64,000 nucleotides of DNA, taken from NCBI RefSeq assembly GCF_029395675.1, contig NZ_CP115184.1, positions 2,232,001-2,296,000 of the forward strand, written 5' to 3'. Both the position numbers and the translations under genes were made by a program. Positions 11,372-64,000 of this stretch are shown piece after piece (within the stretch, counting starts at the first letter, position 1; every line of letters begins with the position of its first letter). The DNA is from Janibacter cremeus. Lineage in GTDB: Bacteria > Actinomycetota > Actinomycetes > Actinomycetales > Dermatophilaceae. The notes beneath the pieces are model-generated. The model was given only the letters and a program-made list of their open reading frames with translations, searched no databases and had not been told where the DNA came from.

Positions 11372-12547
11372 ATGCATCGACGCCTCTCAGCGGATGACTC
11401 CGCGTTCCAGCAACGCATGCGGGACTACTTCACGACCGAGTTCCCGCAGGACCTGCGCACCAAGGTCGCCGCAGGGGACAAGTTGTCCCCCGAGGACATC
11501 CGGCGCAGCCAGGCGACCCTCGCCGAGGCGGGGCTCGCTGTACCGGGCTGGCCGACCGAGTGGGGCGGCCAGGACTGGACCCCCCTGCAGAAACACATCT
11601 GGAACAGCGAGCTCCAGGCGGCCGGCGTGCCGCCGCCCCTGCCCTTCAACACGTCGATGGTCGGTCCGGTGATCGCCGCCTTCGGATCGGAGGGTCTCAA
11701 ACGACGATTCCTCCCGAAGACGGCAACTGCCGAGATCTGGTGGTGCCAAGGATTCTCCGAGCCGGGCGCCGGCTCCGACCTCGCCTCGCTGCGGACGACC
11801 GCCGTCCGGGACGGTGACGAGTACGTCGTCACCGGGCAGAAGACCTGGACCACCCTCGGCCAGCACGCCGACTGGATGTTCGCCCTCGTGCGCACCGACC
11901 CCGATGCGCCGAAGAAGCAGGCCGGCATCTCCTTCCTCCTCCTCGACATGCGCAGCGAGGGCGTGACGGTCAGTCCCATCCGGACCCTCGACGGGGGCGT
12001 CGAGGTCAACGACGTCTTCCTCGACGAGGTCCGCGTCCCGGCGGACCAGTTGGTGGGCGAGGAGAACCGCGGGTGGGACTACGCGAAGTTCCTCCTGGGC
12101 AACGAGCGCGTCGGCGTCGCCAACACCGGCCTGATCAAGCGTTGGCTCGTCCAGCTCAAGGAGCACGCGCAACAGGTCCGCCTCGGCGACGGCACCCTGC
12201 TCGCCGACCCGGCCATCGCCGCGCGATTCGCCGAGGTCGAGGCCCAGCTGATGTCCGTCGAGCTGACCGCCGTCCGGGTCTCCGGAACGTCCGAGGACGG
12301 GCGTCCCGACCCGGCCTCGTCGATCCTCAAGCTGTGTGGCTCCCAGCTGCAGCAGGACGTCCTCGAGCTCGCCGTGGACATCAGCGGCCCCATGGCCCTG
12401 GTCTGGGACGCCCTCGACTCGGTACCCGAGTGGGCCGCGCAGAGCGTGCCCACCTACCTCAACTACCGCAAGGCCACGATCTACGGCGGATCCAGCGAGG
12501 TCCAGCGCAGCATCGTCGCCGGAACCATTCTTGGACTGAAGGGCTGA
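11372..12547 (+). CDS. Acyl-CoA dehydrogenase, large-subunit type
   Basis: 391-residue FAD-dependent acyl-CoA dehydrogenase. Visible segments are LPFNTSMVGPVIAAFGSE, the flavin-contact WWCQGFSEPGAGSDLASL, VTGQKTWTT, and the terminal YGGSSEVQRSIVAGTILGLKG typical of FadE proteins. Two adjacent, differing ACAD genes encode the alpha2beta2 heterotetrameric enzymes known from steroid and long branched acyl-CoA catabolism (ChsE4-ChsE5 type). The next gene starts ten bases downstream, which supports that reading. No strong ribosome site precedes the ATG at 11372, so the start is less certain. Confidence 0.88.
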   Translation: MHRRLSADDSAFQQRMRDYFTTEFPQDLRTKVAAGDKLSPEDIRRSQATLAEAGLAVPGWPTEWGGQDWTPLQKHIWNSELQAAGVPPPLPFNTSMVGPVIAAFGSEGLKRRFLPKTATAEIWWCQGFSEPGAGSDLASLRTTAVRDGDEYVVTGQKTWTTLGQHADWMFALVRTDPDAPKKQAGISFLLLDMRSEGVTVSPIRTLDGGVEVNDVFLDEVRVPADQLVGEENRGWDYAKFLLGNERVGVANTGLIKRWLVQLKEHAQQVRLGDGTLLADPAIAARFAEVEAQLMSVELTAVRVSGTSEDGRPDPASSILKLCGSQLQQDVLELAVDISGPMALVWDALDSVPEWAAQSVPTYLNYRKATIYGGSSEVQRSIVAGTILGLKG

Positions 12548-12556
12548 CGCTGACCC

Positions 12557-13645
12557 ATGGACTTCACCCCCACCGACGAACAGCAGGCGCTCGCCGAAGC
12601 CGTTCGGGGCACCCTCCGCCGCCATGCTTCCCTGGCCACCGGACGCGAGGAGTCCGCGGCTCCACCCGCCCACGACGAGACGTTGTGGTCAAGCCTGGTC
12701 GAGACCGGTGTCCCCGGACTCCTGTGGTCCGAGGAGGACGGCGGTCTTGGAGCAGGGATGACGGACCTCGCCGCCGCGGCGACCGCGATCGGACGTTCAG
12801 GGGTGCAGGTTCCCCTCGCCGAGTGCGTGGTCGCCGGCGCGCTCGTCCGGGCGCTCGCTCCGGCGGACGTGCGCCGGGAGGTTCTCGGCGCCGTGAGCGA
12901 AGGGAGCGCACTCCCGATCCCGGCACTCGCCGAGCCGCTGCGCGCGTGGTCGCCCGCGCCGACCGACGTCACCGCCTCCGAGGGGACCGGTTCGTGGACC
13001 CTCAGCGGCACCAAGGCGCCAGTGCGATACGCCCCGGCCGCCACCCACCTGCTCGTGTCCGCCGCCACCGAGTCGGGCACCGGCGTCTTCCTCCTCCCCT
13101 CCTCCGGTGGGACCGGTGAAGAGCTCGTCCTCGACAGCAGCCCCGCGACCCTGCTCGCCCAGGGCCCGTCGGCGGAGACCGCTCTGCGGGAGGCGCTCGC
13201 CCTCGGTGGGGTGGTCCTGTGCGCCGAGGCCGTCGGCGTCATGCAGGAGGCCCTGCGCCTGACGACCGAGTACCTCGGCACGCGAACCCAATTCGGCCGG
13301 ACGCTGGCGAGCTTCCAGGCCCTCACGCACCGGGCCGCTGACATGTACGCCCAGCTCGAGCTCGCACGCAGTGCAACGCTGTACGCCGCAATGGCCGCCG
13401 ACGAGCGCCCGCTCGACGTGGACCACGTCCTCCGGGCGCGGGTCGTGGTGGACGGTGCAGCGCGACTCATCGGCCAGGAGGCGATCCAGATGCACGGTGG
13501 CATCGGAGTGACCGCCGAGCACGCCGTCGGTCACCTCACCGCTCGGCTCACTGCGCTCACCCGCACCTGGGGCGACCGGCGCTCACACCTGGCCGAGCTC
13601 GCCACGCGGATCGACGACCACGAGGGCGTCGAGGTCTTGGCATGA
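12557..13645 (+). CDS. Acyl-CoA dehydrogenase, second subunit
   Basis: 362 residues with an ACAD fold but divergent in the middle: it has an N-terminal helical part (MDFTPTDEQQALAEAVRG), a shortened beta domain and the C-terminal four-helix segment with YLGTRTQFGRTLASFQAL and IQMHGGIGVTAEHAVGH. The last motif includes the flavin-pyrophosphate contact region. It probably partners the preceding protein in a heterotetramer with split FAD and catalytic duties. It ends in an ATGA overlap with a DUF1330 gene, giving a three-gene transcription unit. Confidence 0.85.
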   Translation: MDFTPTDEQQALAEAVRGTLRRHASLATGREESAAPPAHDETLWSSLVETGVPGLLWSEEDGGLGAGMTDLAAAATAIGRSGVQVPLAECVVAGALVRALAPADVRREVLGAVSEGSALPIPALAEPLRAWSPAPTDVTASEGTGSWTLSGTKAPVRYAPAATHLLVSAATESGTGVFLLPSSGGTGEELVLDSSPATLLAQGPSAETALREALALGGVVLCAEAVGVMQEALRLTTEYLGTRTQFGRTLASFQALTHRAADMYAQLELARSATLYAAMAADERPLDVDHVLRARVVVDGAARLIGQEAIQMHGGIGVTAEHAVGHLTARLTALTRTWGDRRSHLAELATRIDDHEGVEVLA

Positions 13646-14070
13646 GTCACGTCGATCCGACCAGGGAGGCGTTCGACCAGTTCAAGTCGCTGCCGCGCGA
13701 CGAACCGATCCAGATGCTCAACCTGATCCGATACCGGGACAAGGCGGCCTACCCGGCGGGCCACGAGAACGCCGGGAAGGACTGGAGCGGCGCGGACGCC
13801 TACCGCGAGTACGGCCGTACGAGCGGTCCCGTCCTCCAGCGCGTCGGCGGACGGATCATCTGGCGCGGGAAGCCCCGGGTGACCTTGACCGGGCCGTCCG
13901 AGGAGCAGTGGGATGCCGGCTTCATCGCCGAATACCCCTCTGCAGCAGCCTTTTTCGCCATGATCTCCGACGAGGAGTACCAGCAGGCGGTCGTCAACCG
14001 AACGGCGGCCGTGGCGGACAGTCGCCTGATCAGGTTCGACCCGCGCGAGGGCGGGGCAGGCTTCGCGTGA
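13642..14070 (+). CDS. DUF1330 domain protein
   Basis: 142-residue protein of the dimeric alpha/beta-barrel type. MLNLIRYRDKAAYP near residue 30, a central YREYGRTSGPVLQRVGGRI and the terminal FFAMISDEEYQQAVVNRTAAVADSRLIRF are the DUF1330 pattern. Biochemical function is unknown. It overlaps the second acyl-CoA dehydrogenase by ATGA and so is co-translated with it, suggesting a part in the same acyl-CoA or ring-degradation route, perhaps as a lyase or monooxygenase-like accessory. Confidence 0.82.
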   Translation: MSHVDPTREAFDQFKSLPRDEPIQMLNLIRYRDKAAYPAGHENAGKDWSGADAYREYGRTSGPVLQRVGGRIIWRGKPRVTLTGPSEEQWDAGFIAEYPSAAAFFAMISDEEYQQAVVNRTAAVADSRLIRFDPREGGAGFA

Positions 14071-19561: not shown

Positions 19562-20776
19562 ATGTCCCAGGAGAAGAAGCTCGACGTCGCTGCGCTGCGC
19601 GCGAAGTTCCCGTCCCTGTCCTCCGGCATCGCCCACTTCGACGGCCCGGGAGGCACCCAGACTCCGGCGGTGGTGGGCGAGGCCGTCGCCCGCACCCTGA
19701 CCGGGCCGCTGTCCAACCGCGGCAGCGGCGTGGTCAGCGAGACGAACGCCGAGGAGGCGATCGCGGGCTTCCGCGGCGCGCTGGCCGATCTGCTCGGTGC
19801 CCGACCGGAGGGCATCGTCTACGGCCGCAGCGCCACCCAGATCACCTACGACATCGCCCGGACAGTGGCGAAGGGGTGGGGCCCGGGTGATGACGTCGTC
19901 GTCAGCCAGCTCGACCACGACTCGAACGTCCGCCCCTGGGTGCAGGTGGCCGAGGCCGTCGGCGCGACCGTGCGGTGGCTGCCGCTCGACCCGGCCACGG
20001 GCGACCTCGACCTCAGCGGCATCGACGGGGTGATCACCGGACGCACCCGGCTCGTGGCGCTCACCGCCGCGTCGAACCTCCTGGGCACGCAGCCCCGGGT
20101 GGCCAAGATCGCCGAGGCGGCGCACCGCGTGGGGGCGCTCGTCTACGTCGACGGCGTCCACCACACCGCGCACGCGAGCGTGGACGTGGCCGCCCTGGGT
20201 GCCGACTTCTACGTCTGCTCGCCCTACAAGTTCTTCGGGCCGCACTGTGCCGCGCTCGCCGCGGACCCCGGGCTGCTGGCGACGCTCACCCCCGACAAGT
20301 TGCTGCCCTCCACGGACGAGGTGCCGGAGCGGTTCGAGCTCGGGACGCTGCCCTACGAGCTGATGGCCGGTGCGACGGCAGCGGTCGACGTCATCGCCGA
20401 CATCGCCCCGGAGGGTGGCAGCCGGCGCGACCGGCTGGTCCGGGCCCACGAGCTCGTGCGCGAGCATGAGGACCGCCTCCGCGAGAGGGTCGAAGGGGGC
20501 CTGGCCGAGCTGGGCGACCGCGTCACCGTCCACTCCGTGGCCGAGCAGCGCACCCCCACACTGTTCTTCACCTTCGCCGACCGGGATGCCGCAGAGGCCT
20601 ACCGGTTCCTCGGCGAGCGCGATGTCCTCGCGCCGGCCGGGAGCTTCTACGCCTACGAGCCCTTCCGCGCGCTCGATCTCCCGGTCGACAGCGGGATGCG
20701 GGTGGGTCTGGCGCCCTACACCGACGACTCGGACGTCGACCGACTCCTGGCCGGATTGCGCGACTTCCTCACCTGA
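19562..20776 (+). CDS. Cysteine desulfurase-like class-V PLP enzyme
   Basis: 404-residue fold-type I PLP enzyme of the cysteine desulfurase-like group. HFDGPGGTQTPAVVGEAV starts the fold at about 25; GRSATQITYDIARTV holds the phosphate-binding part; VYVDGVHHTAH supplies the Asp197 and following His that hold the pyridine ring; SPYKFFGPH carries the Schiff-base Lys223. The exact reaction (desulfuration, lyase or aminotransfer) cannot be decided. The stop is six bases from the first unit of a three-copy 22-bp repeat. Confidence 0.85.
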   Translation: MSQEKKLDVAALRAKFPSLSSGIAHFDGPGGTQTPAVVGEAVARTLTGPLSNRGSGVVSETNAEEAIAGFRGALADLLGARPEGIVYGRSATQITYDIARTVAKGWGPGDDVVVSQLDHDSNVRPWVQVAEAVGATVRWLPLDPATGDLDLSGIDGVITGRTRLVALTAASNLLGTQPRVAKIAEAAHRVGALVYVDGVHHTAHASVDVAALGADFYVCSPYKFFGPHCAALAADPGLLATLTPDKLLPSTDEVPERFELGTLPYELMAGATAAVDVIADIAPEGGSRRDRLVRAHELVREHEDRLRERVEGGLAELGDRVTVHSVAEQRTPTLFFTFADRDAAEAYRFLGERDVLAPAGSFYAYEPFRALDLPVDSGMRVGLAPYTDDSDVDRLLAGLRDFLT

Positions 20777-20782
20777 GGTGTA

Positions 20783-20890
20783 CGCAAGAGCCCAAGCAGT
20801 TGCGAAGAATTCGACCTCCGGACCGCAAAAGCCTAAGCAGTTGCGAAGGGGGGGGTCGACCTCCGGACCGCAAAAGCCTAAGCAGTTGCG
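20783..20890. repeat. Three-copy 22-bp repeat array between convergent genes (locus 1)
   Basis: Units at 20783-20804, 20824-20845 and 20869-20890 share the core GAGCC[C/T]AAGCAGTTGCG or AAGCCTAAGCAGTTGCG, with CGCAA...TTGCG ends able to pair over five bases and an inner GC-CTAA-GC mini-stem. Spacers of 19 and 23 bp share TCGACCTCCGGAC. The first unit reads CCC where the other two read CCT. The third unit contains the stop codon of the minus-strand gene. The same family recurs at 63134-63237. Confidence 0.9.
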
Positions 20891-21453
20891 TAGGGGTCGC
20901 GGCCCGTCAGACCGATGAGGCGGTCCTGACGGGAGGCGTCGGCGGGGACCTCCACCGCCGGTCCGCACACCCCTTCGCCACGGATGGCCTCGCCGAATCC
21001 GGCGATGGACTCCGCGATCTGGTCGAGCTCGCGGTCGCTGAAGACGACCTCCGTCCCGGCCGTGCGGCCGATGTCCCACCGGTGCACGAGCAGGTCGAAG
21101 CCGAAGAACCGCTCGAAGGCCCCACCGACCGTGCTCGCCCCGAAGGGGGTCTCGTACGGGCGCTCGGCGAGGGTGTCGTCGGCGAGCTGGCGGGCGACCG
21201 CCTCGGCGTGCGTGCGCCACGCCGTGGACGCGCCCAGCGCCTCGACCCTCGGCGTCGGGTCGGGCATGTCGGCCCCGGCCTTCTGGAGGAAGTCGCGCTG
21301 GGTGTCGATGAGGTGCTGGACCACGTCGGCGCCCGTCCAGCCCTCGCACGGGCTCGGGCCGGCGAGCTGCTGCGGGTCGACGGAGTCGACGAGACGCATC
21401 AACGGCGTGTTCTTGCGGTCGAAGACGGAGGCGGCATCGCGAGGAAGGGGCAT
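20878..21453 (-). CDS. DinB-like metal-binding protein, TIGR03086 type
   Basis: 191 residues from the ATG at 21451-21453. It has the four-helix mycothiol/DinB-type fold: LVDSVDPQQLAGPSPCEGWTGADVVQHLIDTQRDFL carries the typical PCxGWT and metal-binding His, and GFDLLVHRWDIGRTAG holds the second His. Related proteins include mycothiol-dependent maleylpyruvate isomerase, but this subgroup is functionally unassigned. The last codons GCA ACT GCT TAG lie inside the third intergenic repeat unit, so its C-terminal ATA and stop derive from repeat sequence. Confidence 0.82.
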   Translation of the reverse strand: MPLPRDAASVFDRKNTPLMRLVDSVDPQQLAGPSPCEGWTGADVVQHLIDTQRDFLQKAGADMPDPTPRVEALGASTAWRTHAEAVARQLADDTLAERPYETPFGASTVGGAFERFFGFDLLVHRWDIGRTAGTEVVFSDRELDQIAESIAGFGEAIRGEGVCGPAVEVPADASRQDRLIGLTGRDPYATA

Positions 21454-21581
21454 GGCCCCAGAGTGCCATCCCCGCGCTGGGCCCGACCCCGACGCCGCTC
21501 GTGAACGCCGCGCGAACCCTCGGCGAAGCCTGCGTCGAAGGGCTTGCCGCACGTCGCCGGACCGGGTGGCATGGACGCGAC

Positions 21582-57816: not shown

Positions 57817-57828
57817 GCCGGTTACGAC

Positions 57829-57918
57829 GGGGCCTCGTCAGCTGCTCGGCAGCGCGGCGGGGCCTCGTCGGCTGCCCGGGCAGCCCCGGCAGGGGCCCTC
57901 GTCAGCTGCTCAGCAGCG
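57829..57918. repeat. Three imperfect tandem copies overlapping a gene 3' end
   Basis: Copies at 57829-57854, 57859-57884 and 57892-57918 share GGGGCCTCGTCAGCTGCTC followed by GGCAGC or AGCAGC, with spacing of 30 and 33 bp. The rightmost copy covers the last codons and TGA of the minus-strand flavoprotein gene (57902); the other two fill the gap to the convergent cupin gene. Each copy contains a CAGCTGCT...GCAGC self-complementary part. Confidence 0.75.
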
Positions 57919-58396
57919 CGGAGAGGGTGCCGCCCAGCTCGGTGGCGCGGTCGGTGGCGTCCTCGTCGACGTCGCCGAGGACCTCGAGGACCTCCGCCGC
58001 CTGCTTCCACTCCAGCGCCGAGACGATCGAGGTAACCGCGCGGACGGCGCCGGTGACGTCGTAGCGGCCGTGGACCCACAGCCCGAAGGGCCGCTTGGCG
58101 GTCGGCCCGGCCTGTCCCTCCCCCGCGCCCCCGGAGTCGTCGAGGGCGCCGCCGACCTGGAGGAAGGTCGAGTCGAAGAAGTGCTTGAGCGCCCCGGACA
58201 TGTAGCCGAAGTTCGCCGGCGTCCCGAGCAGGTAGCCGTCGGCGGCGAGGACGTCGTCGGCGGTGGCCTCGAGCGCGGGGATCACCTCCACCTCCACCCC
58301 CTCGATGTCGGGGTGTCGCGCGCCCTCGAGCGCCGCGTCGAGCAGCGCCTTGGTCGAGCGGGTCGGGCTGTGGTGGACGACGAGCAGGCGTGCCAT
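57902..58396 (-). CDS. Flavodoxin-like NAD(P)H-dependent oxidoreductase
   Basis: 164 residues. RLLVVHHSPTRSTKALLDAALEGA at the start is the FMN-phosphate loop (SPTRST), GYLLGTPANFGYMSGALKHFFDST is the second flavin loop, and FGLWVHGRYDVTGA the third. It fits flavodoxin/NADPH-dependent FMN reductases of the WrbA/Fld type. Electron partner unknown. The C-terminal SALLSS and stop lie in the tandem repeat described above. Confidence 0.85.
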   Translation of the reverse strand: MARLLVVHHSPTRSTKALLDAALEGARHPDIEGVEVEVIPALEATADDVLAADGYLLGTPANFGYMSGALKHFFDSTFLQVGGALDDSGGAGEGQAGPTAKRPFGLWVHGRYDVTGAVRAVTSIVSALEWKQAAEVLEVLGDVDEDATDRATELGGTLSALLSS

Positions 58397-61543: not shown

Positions 61544-61603
61544 CCGTCGCCGATGACCGCGGCCCGGGGACCTCGGCATCGACGAGGGCCCTTGAGACTC
61601 GAC

Positions 61604-61685
61604 TCCCTACGCCGGTGCGAACCGGATCAGGTACGAGGGTCTGCGGTTGCCCGCACTCTCAGCGCTGTGCGCTCCCCTGTCGTGC
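61604..61685 (-). ncRNA. TPP (thiamine pyrophosphate) riboswitch
   Basis: Read on the minus strand, the element has the THI-box blocks in order: GGGGAGC (P1 side), GCTGAGAG (rc of 61656-61663), ACCCTCGTACCTGATCCGG (CCTGATCCGG at 61622-61631) and GCGTAGGGA (61604-61612) closing the stem. These are the conserved pyrimidine- and pyrophosphate-binding segments. It lies about 100 bases before the YkoE start and would lower translation when TPP is plentiful. Confidence 0.95.
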
Positions 61686-61810
61686 CCCTCCAGCATACCC
61701 GCTGTGCGCGCGATGGCCAGTGCTCGCGGCCCGTCCTGTGGCAGTGTTGTGCACGACGAGTACTTGGCGCGGCACCCGCTGCGCCTTCCCGAGACGAAGG
61801 GACGACCGAC

Positions 61811-62153: not shown

Positions 62154-63131
62154 GTGCGGGGCATCTCGATCACCAAGCCCGGGGACGCCGACGTCCTGCA
62201 GGCCACCGAGGTCGACGACCCCCGCCCGCAGTCGGGGCAGGTCGTCGTCGACACGGTCGCCGCGGGGGTCAACCGGGCCGACATCATGCAACGCAAGGGG
62301 CTCTACCCCCCGCCGAAGGGGGCCTCCCCCCTTCCCGGTCTGGAGGTCTCGGGCACGGTCCGCGAGGTCGGCCCCGACGTCGAGGGCTGGTCCGTCGGCG
62401 ACGAGGTCTGCGCGCTCGTCGACGGCGGCGGCTACGCCGAGCAGGTCCTCGTGCCGGCCGCCCAGCTGCTGCCGGTCCCCCGGGGTGTCTCCGTGCGCGA
62501 TGCGGCCGGGCTGCCCGAGGTGGCCTGCACGGTCTGGTCCAACGTCTTCATGACCGCGAACCTGCAGCCGGGTGAGGTCTTCCTCGTCCACGGCGGCTCC
62601 TCGGGCATCGGCACGATGGCGATCCAGCTGGCCAAGGCCGCCGGAGCCACGGTCGCCGTGACCGCCGGCACCGAGGAGAAGCTGGCCTTCTGTCGCGAGC
62701 TCGGCGCGGACATCGCGGTCAACTACCGCGAGCAGGACTTCGTCGAGGAGGTCCGGAGCGCGACCGACGGGCACGGCGCGGACGTCATCCTCGACGTCAT
62801 GGGCGCGAAGTACCTGCCCCGCAATGTCGACCTCCTGGCAACGAACGGCCGGCTGGTCGTCATCGGACTCATGGGCGGTCGCACGGGTGAGCTCGACCTC
62901 GGGAAGATGCTGAGCAAGCGTGCCGCCGTCATCGCGACCTCGCTGCGGGCCCGTCCGCCCGAGGAGAAGGCCACCATCGTCGCCGCCGTGCGCGAGCACG
63001 TGTGGCCACTCATCGACGACGGCGCTGTCCGCCCGATCATCCAGGGCACCCACCCGCTGGACCGGGCGGCCGACGCGCACCGTGAGCTCGAGGCCAGCGG
63101 CCACATCGGCAAGATCCTGCTCACCCCCTGA
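62154..63131 (+). CDS. NAD(P)H-quinone oxidoreductase (zeta-crystallin/PIG3-like)
   Basis: 325-residue medium-chain dehydrogenase without zinc ligands. The N-terminal part has VNRADIMQRKGLYPPPKGASPLPGLEVSG and VGDEVCALVDGGGYAEQVLVPA; the Rossmann motif is VFLVHGGSSGIGTMAIQLAKAAGATVAVTAGTEEKLAF; IILDVMGAKYLPRN-type segments and GKILLTP end it. It reduces quinones or enals with NADPH. Start GTG at 62154, one base after the DUF4235 stop. Its stop lies two bases before a three-copy repeat array. Confidence 0.9.
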   Translation: MRGISITKPGDADVLQATEVDDPRPQSGQVVVDTVAAGVNRADIMQRKGLYPPPKGASPLPGLEVSGTVREVGPDVEGWSVGDEVCALVDGGGYAEQVLVPAAQLLPVPRGVSVRDAAGLPEVACTVWSNVFMTANLQPGEVFLVHGGSSGIGTMAIQLAKAAGATVAVTAGTEEKLAFCRELGADIAVNYREQDFVEEVRSATDGHGADVILDVMGAKYLPRNVDLLATNGRLVVIGLMGGRTGELDLGKMLSKRAAVIATSLRARPPEEKATIVAAVREHVWPLIDDGAVRPIIQGTHPLDRAADAHRELEASGHIGKILLTP

Positions 63132-63133
63132 CG

Positions 63134-63237
63134 CGCAGGAGCCCAAGCAGTTGCGAGGTGGGCACCTCCCCCTTCGCAGGAGCCTAAGCAGTTGCGAGGT
63201 GGGCGCCTCCCCCTTCGCAGGAGCCTAAGCAGTTGCG
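63134..63237. repeat. Three-copy 22-bp repeat array between convergent genes (locus 2)
   Basis: Units at 63134-63155, 63175-63196 and 63216-63237, period exactly 41 bp, with core GAGCC[C/T]AAGCAGTTGCG and CGCAG...TTGCG ends. The first unit again has CCC and the others CCT, as at locus 1. Both 19-bp spacers form a small hairpin (AGGTG-GG-CACCT; AGGTG-GG-CGCCT with a G-T pair) followed by CCCCCTTCG. The third unit contains the stop codon of the minus-strand ABC gene. Confidence 0.9.
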
Positions 63238-63944
63238 GGGGTGAGGTGGCCGTCGTCGAGGCGCCAGACCGCGTGGGCCACCTCGGCGACCTCGGGGTCA
63301 TGGGTCGCCAGCAGGACGATCCCGCCACGTCGGGCGACCTCCTGCAGCAGCGCGACCACCCGCTCGCGGGTGTCGTGGTCGAGCTCGGAGGTGGGCTCGT
63401 CGGCGAGGAGGAGCACACCCCCTTCGTCCAGGCGAAGGGAGGCCAGGGCCAGTCCGCGGGCGACGGCCACCCGCTGGCGCTGCCCACCGGACAGCTCCTC
63501 GGCGAGGTGGCTGCCGTGCTCTCCCAGGCCGACCGCCGCGAGCGCCTCGTCGGCCCGCCTCATCGCATCGGCGCCGGCCGTCCCGGCCGCCAGGAGCGGG
63601 ACGGTGACGTTGTCGCGGGCCGTGAGCACCTCCGCCAGGGCGCTGCCCTGCGGGATGAGCACGGCGCCCGCCGCCCGGGCCGACTCCTCGTCCTCGAGGG
63701 TCCGGGCGCCGAGCGACACGGTGCCGTCGGTCCGGTCGGGCGCGAGCAGGCCCCCGACGGCCCACAGCAGTGAGGTCTTCCCCGCACCGGAGTGGCCCGT
63801 GACCGCGGTGACCTCCCCGGCGCGGGCGGTCGCGTGGACGTCGCCGAGCGCGCTCACGTCGCCGTAGGCCACCCCCAGCCCCTCGATCACGAGGTCGGCG
63901 GGTGCCTGCCCCGTGGCGGGCCGCGCCCGCGTGGTCCGCCTCAC
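63225..63944 (-). CDS. ABC transporter ATP-binding protein (LolD/MacB type)
   Basis: 239 residues from the GTG at 63942-63944 after GAGGAGG. Walker A GHSGAGKTS at about 50, signature LSGGQRQRVAVARGLAL, Walker B VLLLADEPTSELD and switch LATHDPEV, plus VLIPQGSALAEVLTARDNVTVPLL typical of the LolD/MacB group that works with FtsX-like permeases. Its GTG overlaps the stop of the upstream gene (GTGA), so its permease may lie beyond the window. The last residues ATA and stop lie in a repeat unit. Confidence 0.9.
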   Translation of the reverse strand: MRRTTRARPATGQAPADLVIEGLGVAYGDVSALGDVHATARAGEVTAVTGHSGAGKTSLLWAVGGLLAPDRTDGTVSLGARTLEDEESARAAGAVLIPQGSALAEVLTARDNVTVPLLAAGTAGADAMRRADEALAAVGLGEHGSHLAEELSGGQRQRVAVARGLALASLRLDEGGVLLLADEPTSELDHDTRERVVALLQEVARRGGIVLLATHDPEVAEVAHAVWRLDDGHLTPATA

Positions 63945-64000
63945 CGTTCCTCCTCGCCGGGCATCAGCAGCCACCCGTTCTCGCCCCGGTGCACCCGCAC
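63941..64000 (-). CDS. C-terminus of a gene running off the right edge
   Basis: An open minus-strand frame enters from base 64000 and ends at TGA (63941-63943) with ...RVHRGENGWLLMPGEEER. GTGA overlap with the ABC ATPase start and the internal GAGGAGG ribosome site show it is a real gene end. Likely another ABC component or its partner, but 19 residues are too few to identify. Confidence 0.6.
   Translation of the reverse strand: MRVHRGENGWLLMPGEEER

Follow-up and report, generated by a model that had tools for sequence, protein, structure and literature searches.

A REP-like 22-bp repeat family with helically phased, head-to-tail arrays and species-specific dialects in the genus Janibacter

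In two places in a 64,000-nucleotide stretch of Janibacter cremeus DNA (the window; positions 2,232,001–2,296,000 of the single 3,495,359-bp contig of this genome, G000), the gap between two convergent genes is occupied by three copies of a 22-bp sequence. What kind of element this is, and how it comes to lie at the ends of genes, are the questions raised by this locus. The two arrays and their neighbours are listed below; genes were called with a codon-usage script of our own rather than a standard annotator.

19562–20776, plus strand: class-V aminotransferase gene (Pfam Aminotran_5), left neighbour of array 1
20783–20804, plus strand: array 1, unit 1, CGCAAGAGCCCAAGCAGTTGCG
20824–20845, plus strand: array 1, unit 2, CGCAAAAGCCTAAGCAGTTGCG, 41 bp after unit 1
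20869–20890, plus strand: array 1, unit 3, 45 bp after unit 2, containing the stop codon of the minus-strand gene (20878–20880, minus strand)
20878–21552, minus strand: gene for an MDMPI_N / DinB_2 domain protein, right neighbour of array 1 (start at 21453 according to our gene caller)
62154–63131, plus strand: zinc-type alcohol dehydrogenase gene (ADH_zinc_N), left neighbour of array 2
63134–63155, plus strand: array 2, unit 1, CGCAGGAGCCCAAGCAGTTGCG
63175–63196, plus strand: array 2, unit 2, 41 bp after unit 1
63216–63237, plus strand: array 2, unit 3, 41 bp after unit 2, containing the stop codon of the minus-strand gene (63225–63227, minus strand)
63225–63974, minus strand: ABC transporter ATPase gene, right neighbour of array 2 (start at 63890 according to our gene caller)

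The geometry described in the initial annotation is present at both loci: the first units begin 6 and 2 bp past the plus-strand stop codon, and the minus-strand gene ends with GCA ACT GCT TAG inside the last unit. All six window matches to AAGCAGTTGCG with at most one mismatch fall within an array unit (shuffled sequences predict 0.40). Two further regularities proposed from these arrays are local. A first unit with CCC followed by units with CCT is found in both window arrays but is not a conserved order elsewhere, C occupying this position in 11 of 32 first and 12 of 45 later units in G000 (Fisher p = 0.45), and in 6 of 23 first and 7 of 70 later units in the genome G007 (p = 0.08). Nor is a number of three copies a rule, as the 48 arrays of G000 contain one to four units, with up to eight in the G007 sample and up to 12 in the G001 sample. 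An Rfam search of the window yielded a TPP riboswitch (61587–61688, minus strand, 62.1 bits) as its only match, and none at the arrays. Another convergent gap of the window (57828–57921) contains a 30-bp repeat in three copies, unrelated in sequence to the 22-bp unit.

The unit of G000 is a 22-bp near-palindrome, CGCA-RGAG-CCTARG-CAGT-TGCG, in which CGCA and TGCG form the outer arms and the central bases approximate CCTAGG, the middle part being in most cases not complementary from one arm to the other; perfectly palindromic versions also occur in this genome (e.g. at 2640914). Its spelling differs between species, and these dialects have a common architecture, YGCA-N4-CYTARG-N4-TGCR, with a CCCGGG centre in one species (G001). 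In the long arrays of G001 (L292–L311), read by eye, full CGCAACTG/CAGTTGCG arms are found at the outer ends and the inner arms of one direction are worn to AATTTGCC-like forms, so that the array ends resemble terminal inverted repeats. A second genus-wide word, CGAAGGGG / CCCCTTCG, resembles the flanks of many 22-bp units (cccctt-unit-aagggg); of its 44 window copies, 24 are on the plus strand and 20 on the minus strand, and four relatives have 45–78 copies per 100 kb, for a hand estimate of about 8 from base composition. It was considered as a strand-biased chromosome motif and rejected, since its copies, though abundant, are not markedly biased towards one strand in the window, G007 or G009.

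Further copies, which the initial annotation had predicted, were found both in the rest of the genome and in relatives. Allowing up to one mismatch, the unit gives 88 matches in G000 and its reversed control five; seven of the 88 fall within a duplicated segment, and a perfectly palindromic unit contributes one match on each strand. The exact core of the unit has 152 matches in G007, 16 in G014 and 5 in G001; among the 58 genomes searched, the other 12 of the 16 of the same genus and all 42 from outside the genus gave no match to this spelling. The architecture pattern YGCANNNNCYTARGNNNNTGCR detects 69 sites in G000, 86 in G008, 42 in G011, 5 in G010 and 1 in G003 (the five genus members sampled), and at most one site per genome both in 114 genomes of other genera (family sample) and in 157 genomes besides G000 (class sample, a few of which are also part of the family sample), although it misses palindromes of other design, which other genera could have. 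A looser pattern was searched in all 16 members of the genus. Its counts were clearly above those of the reversed control in G000, G001, G004, G007, G008, G009, G011, G012, G013, G014 and G015, similar to them in G010 and G002, and lower in G003, G005 and G006. In a 15-mer scan of a wide genome collection, the matches listed include single ones in unrelated phyla, taken as chance, and viral contigs gave 16 single matches for one dialect, none for another, and no arrays. Within the samples searched, the 22-bp family is thus restricted to one genus. The duplicated segment mentioned above is present twice in the G000 contig, at about 58–68 kb and at +3,404,681 bp, and the stretches compared at this offset (6,501 bp and 4,128 bp) are identical. 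It was considered as an untrimmed contig-end overlap, but bases 12,000–14,000 have no counterpart at that offset; the repeated 60–66 kb segment is a duplicated segment, either real or an assembly artefact.

Most arrays lie behind stop codons. The 48 arrays of G000, taken from stretches around the genome matches with IS-split arrays counted as two halves (at least one further site, at 2388080, lies outside this set), comprise 25 between convergent genes, 19 between tandem genes, one between divergent genes and three inside genes; for comparison, the gene pairs of the window number 11, 45 and 11 in the first three categories, respectively. The 70 arrays of four sampled genomes are distributed as 28 convergent, 30 tandem, five divergent and seven in genes, for 243, 979 and 238 gene pairs, respectively. 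The stretches of G013 and G009 are spread along the chromosome but include the loci orthologous to those of the window, and some of those of G007 and G001 were selected because they hold known arrays, which means that densities in the latter two are not estimates. Enrichment of a dispersed element at 3' ends was borne out in four of the five genomes, the exception being G001, in which 22 arrays (4 convergent, 16 tandem, 2 divergent, none in genes) are distributed much as its gene pairs are. Between tandem genes, the array lies a median of 13 bp from the upstream stop codon in G000 (19 listed, with one outlier at 1258) and, more loosely, 47 bp in G001 (n = 16). Provision of a neighbour's stop codon, which holds for both window arrays, is not supported as a specialization of the family: it concerns 0–38% of arrays (10 of 48 in G000, 5 of 25 in G007, 3 of 8 in G013, 1 of 15 in G009 and 0 of 22 in G001). 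In the listed cases, this codon is a TAG, TAA or TGA at the unit centre; the CCCGGG-centred dialect of G001 contains no such stop, and none was seen in its arrays. Copies are also found inside rsgA, atuA and a DUF2126 gene, and multi-unit arrays within genes have a frame-keeping span in six of seven cases (3/3 in G000, 1/1 in G007, 2/3 in G009), an agreement partly built in, since the gene-calling script requires open frames.

The initial annotation raised the possibility of a bidirectional terminator. In this reading, the palindromes would form RNA hairpins that stop the polymerase from both sides, with each species re-using one hairpin sequence. The convergent bias in four of five genomes is consistent with this reading, as is the shortness of the gap outside the array (median 31 bp), which frequently leaves the array as the sole candidate for a hairpin; some array-free species also appear, by eye, to have other long hairpins at orthologous loci. 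The folding scores of array gaps are as low as those of other convergent gaps but no lower (median z-score −3.28 for 49 gaps with arrays vs −2.94 for 115 without; z below −2 on the better strand in 71% vs 69%; Mann-Whitney p = 0.46), and the ends of arrays lack T tracts, with at most two consecutive T within 12 nt of 146 array ends in G000 and G007, so the suggestion was not borne out. Furthermore, the commonest units of G000 fold weakly as RNA (−4.6 to −7.4 kcal/mol), the perfect palindromes folding more strongly (−13 to −14 kcal/mol), the copies in reading frames argue against termination as the main role, and termination leaves the helical phasing of the units described below unexplained. 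We therefore consider it unlikely that the family consists of terminators, although the arrays may double as terminators, including types that work without a T tract.

In five genomes, 214 unit-to-unit spacings were obtained, 128 of 28–33 bp and 77 of 39–45 bp, with none of 34–38 bp; the other nine are 12, 20, 48, 52, 61, 62, 62, 64 and 65 bp. The two classes, which together account for 205 of the 214 spacings, are centred on about 31–32 and 41–42 bp, corresponding to three or four helical turns, and the first spacings alone (87 values) fall into identical classes. For the first spacing of each array, the circular R at 10.5 bp is 0.78–0.99; the associated p-values presuppose an independence that is partly broken by tandem multiplication and by the arrays common to G000 and G007. 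Spacings in G013 and G001 are almost exclusively 29–33 bp, those in G009 are mostly 42 bp, and G000 and G007 have both classes. Neighbouring units have the same orientation in 212 of 214 cases, i.e. they are head-to-tail. The sites are thus spaced by whole helical turns, as in a phased array, with shared ancestry of the spacings possible. As the two classes are one helical turn apart and recur in species whose spacers are unrelated and whose dialects differ, they constitute the strongest sign of proteins bound on one face of the helix, although the phasing could stem from two ancestral tandem-duplication lengths rather than from maintenance.

Both window loci were located across the genus and the gaps read base by base. 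Eight of the 16 genomes have units at the second locus, and at least four spellings are represented: CGCAGGAGCCTAAGCAGTTGCG in G000 and G007, CGCATTTCCTTAAGGTCGTGCG and near forms in G013 and G015, TGCAAAACCCTAGGGTCCTGCA in G009, and TGCATTGCCCTASGGCAATGCA and near forms in G012, G006 and G008. The first locus has units in 5 of 12 readable genomes, those of G014 being degenerate (G004, G003 and G001, in which the left gene was not found, and G012, for which the reading missed the gap, were left out). In-frame units spelled in the local dialect are found in a loop of the rsgA GTPase gene, two each in G000, G009 and G004 and one in G007. The units of G014 and G006 are degenerate at this position and G005 has a short relic-like repeat; the remaining 8 of the 15 genomes have none, and G015 gave no match. 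In a tree of three gene pieces, near neighbours differ in dialect (G009, G006 and G004; G011 vs G013), the dialect labels being taken from whole-genome pattern matches, samples or single loci and, for some genomes, from few loci (G006 and G012, locus 2; G004, rsgA; G015, two loci). Homogeneity is incomplete, with more than one spelling each in G001, G010 and G011. A position common to different dialects is hard to obtain by independent random insertion, and we infer either that the spelling has turned over where units already stood or that the same sites were re-seeded. The two strongest features of the family are its helical phasing and the species-specific dialects at shared positions. Some orthologous gaps from which arrays are absent were seen by eye to hold a long hairpin (L218, L223, L224, L209, L210), several with GAGGT...ACCTC arms, perhaps representing a second class of repeat or terminator.

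The comparison of G000 with its relative G007 illustrates the persistence of these positions. Both flanks of 25 of the 48 G000 arrays were found in one G007 stretch, and 23 of these 25 have an array in G007, which indicates low mobility; the remaining two are 1877398, which is empty in G007, and 3032788, at which there is a single degenerate unit. Fourteen of the 25 came from stretches chosen by position forecast (12 of the 14 have a G007 array) and the other 11 from stretches chosen at known arrays or loci fetched by synteny search; the other 23 of the 48 were not comparable for want of a common stretch (position forecast missed, or IS in the flank). The number of units at shared positions often differs (2 to 6, 3 to 8, 1 to 3), and at the first window locus the G000 and G007 spacers look unrelated by eye and nearly match in length. 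At 2843898, the arrays of the two genomes are in opposite orientations, which suggests re-seeding. No clean target-site duplication was seen in the G000/G007 empty-site comparison, which had one clean absence (1877398) and much flank change.

Our preferred reading, to which we give about even credence, is that this is a REP-like family of 22-bp units, mostly behind stop codons, likely to be bound and probably copied by a putative protein sitting on one face of the helix. The phasing would reflect protein dimers lying side by side on that face. This putative protein, or a partner, would drive the gain of units, such that each genome becomes largely homogenized to one dialect; following loss of the factor, the units would decay, as may be the case in G014 and G005, and 3' ends would be the sites at which such insertions do the least harm. 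That the units are probably copied rests on dialect turnover, the in-gene copies and one orientation switch. A bolder form of this reading, which we put forward tentatively and hold to be rather less probable, is that of a genus-wide bacterial counterpart of a drive: a fast-changing DNA-binding protein would switch dialect in concert with its hundred or so phased palindromic sites per genome, a single trans-acting factor re-spelling and multiplying the sites it uses at the ends of unrelated genes. The spelling would change between near species, with positions and geometry persisting.

The sites might instead be species-marked sites of a chromosome-organizing protein, kept by selection rather than selfish, and thus comparable in logic to Noc or ParB sites. 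Helical phasing fits such sites, as does the retention of array positions between two close species. So does the distribution in G000, where 34 of 45 sites are found in the dnaA-proximal half of the chromosome when IS halves are merged and the duplicated segment is entered a single time (dnaA at 2,603,335; KS p = 0.002), in agreement with the plus-strand arrays listed for G007 (23 of the 27 in a list that may be incomplete). The small samples of G013 and G009 show no clear origin bias, however, and five members of the genus have no clear excess of units; to our knowledge, known chromosome-organizing sites also change more slowly than the dialects described here, and we regard this reading as distinctly unlikely. 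Slightly more doubtful is the notion that the arrays are relics of pure tandem duplication, i.e. neutral near-palindromes amplified by slippage, with spacings set by the lengths of the first duplications. Slippage would account for the frequent likeness of the spacers within an array, and for rsgA, in which a single unit in G007 corresponds to two in G000, with a copy of the flanking bases after the second. It does not account for the same two length classes in the presence of unrelated spacers and different dialects, and it does not change the dialect of dispersed loci together.

Which enzyme might copy the units was addressed by several searches. The initial annotation proposed a REP-like sequence mobilized by an unseen enzyme; the first part of this stands, and an enzyme has still not been found. 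PF01797 (Y1/RAYT) has no match in 23 genomes, 16 of them of the same genus, and is present in 5 of 14 control genomes. Tetranucleotide tags within 6 nt on either side of the units are rare: GTAG and CGTC are found at 1 and 3 of 93 units in G000, 2 and 3 of 95 in G007, 0 and 3 of 27 in G013, and 0 and 1 of 25 in G009, respectively; in G001, GTAG is found at none and CGTC at 13 of 92. No recurrent gene family was seen by eye just downstream of the arrays, and no candidate binding protein was found. An IS5-family element (NF033580, E = 1.7e-46), with relatives in actinobacterial plasmids, has four copies in G000 (L156, L164, L183, L184), with TAA on both sides. It was considered as the maker of the units and rejected: the likeness of its left end to the unit is confined to TAAG--GTTGCG, a G007 relative (64% identity) has no unit of its own dialect in the surrounding 3.8 kb, and at most weak pieces are present in the rest of the genus. 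An endonuclease-like gene (weak MTES_1575 / DUF559 Pfam matches, below the cut-off) is bracketed by arrays in two genomes:

L184:3134–4075 (G000) and L248:12788–13729 (G007): endonuclease-like gene, arrays on both sides

It was set aside as a weak lead, as this is a single locus and three other sampled paralogues are not beside arrays. The least probable reading, that of classical REPs mobilized by a RAYT (tyrosine transposase) since lost from the genomes examined, matches published REPs, as far as the available parts of two accounts describe them, in size, copy number, 3'-end location, intragenic copies, stop-codon supply and IS insertion (PMC3733652, PMC1525189), but is opposed by the lack of a PF01797 match among the 23 genomes, by the rarity of GTAG/CGTC tags beside the units of G000 and G007, and by a head-to-tail order with fixed spacing, REP dimers being mostly inverted (PMC3733652).

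The REP-like elements described so far either have been linked to single-strand tyrosine transposases or have no enzyme assigned to them. In the present family, no such enzyme was found, and the strict geometry speaks for a protein binding to double-stranded DNA. The genus also provides natural replicates, with species rich in units, species with decayed units and species without units, and several dialects per locus, which make the question of who copies orphan palindromes directly testable. No published account of such repeats in this group was found in the open-licence literature (titles and abstract openings), which is weak evidence of absence.

The family is a REP in the broad sense: a short palindrome, in high copy number, dispersed, and mostly at 3' ends between convergent or tandem genes. 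The available part of a REP survey describes palindromes located behind stop codons, providing TAG stops and also occurring in genes, with dimers that are mostly inverted and separated by spacers of 20–100 bp, and mentions that CGTC-type REPs may be without a transposase (PMC3733652). Like the REPs and BIMEs covered there, which are near-palindromes of 20–40 bp, the units have many copies near stop codons, between convergent or co-directional genes, supply stop codons and are in some cases found inside genes (PMC3733652). Unlike them, as far as that part of the survey goes, the units rarely have tags in G000 and G007, have no RAYT found alongside them and are head-to-tail, the inverted (head-to-head or tail-to-tail) pairs of REP dimers and REPINs being absent from 212 of the 214 neighbouring pairs; they are also spaced in steps of 10.5 bp and switch spelling between near species at shared loci (PMC3733652). 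Targeting of REPs by IS elements, including members of the IS5 family, is documented in the portion available of another study (PMC1525189); similarly, the IS5-family element of G000 lies within the CTAA of a unit in all four of its copies, and it looks like a hitch-hiker, with no sign of making units. Rickettsia palindromic elements (RPEs) resemble the family in being palindromic repeats in the reading frames of unrelated genes and, on the same partial account, differ from it, the units here being 22 bp long, mostly at 3' ends and in phased arrays (PMC3733652). DNA uptake sequences of Neisseriaceae, in the available part of their description, have thousands of copies, unlike the tens to few hundred palindromic, arrayed copies found here; the likeness lies in the dialects, with one short motif per species and relatives that differ (PMC3630211). 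The family is thus a REP-like element of a new kind: phased, head-to-tail and dialect-switching.
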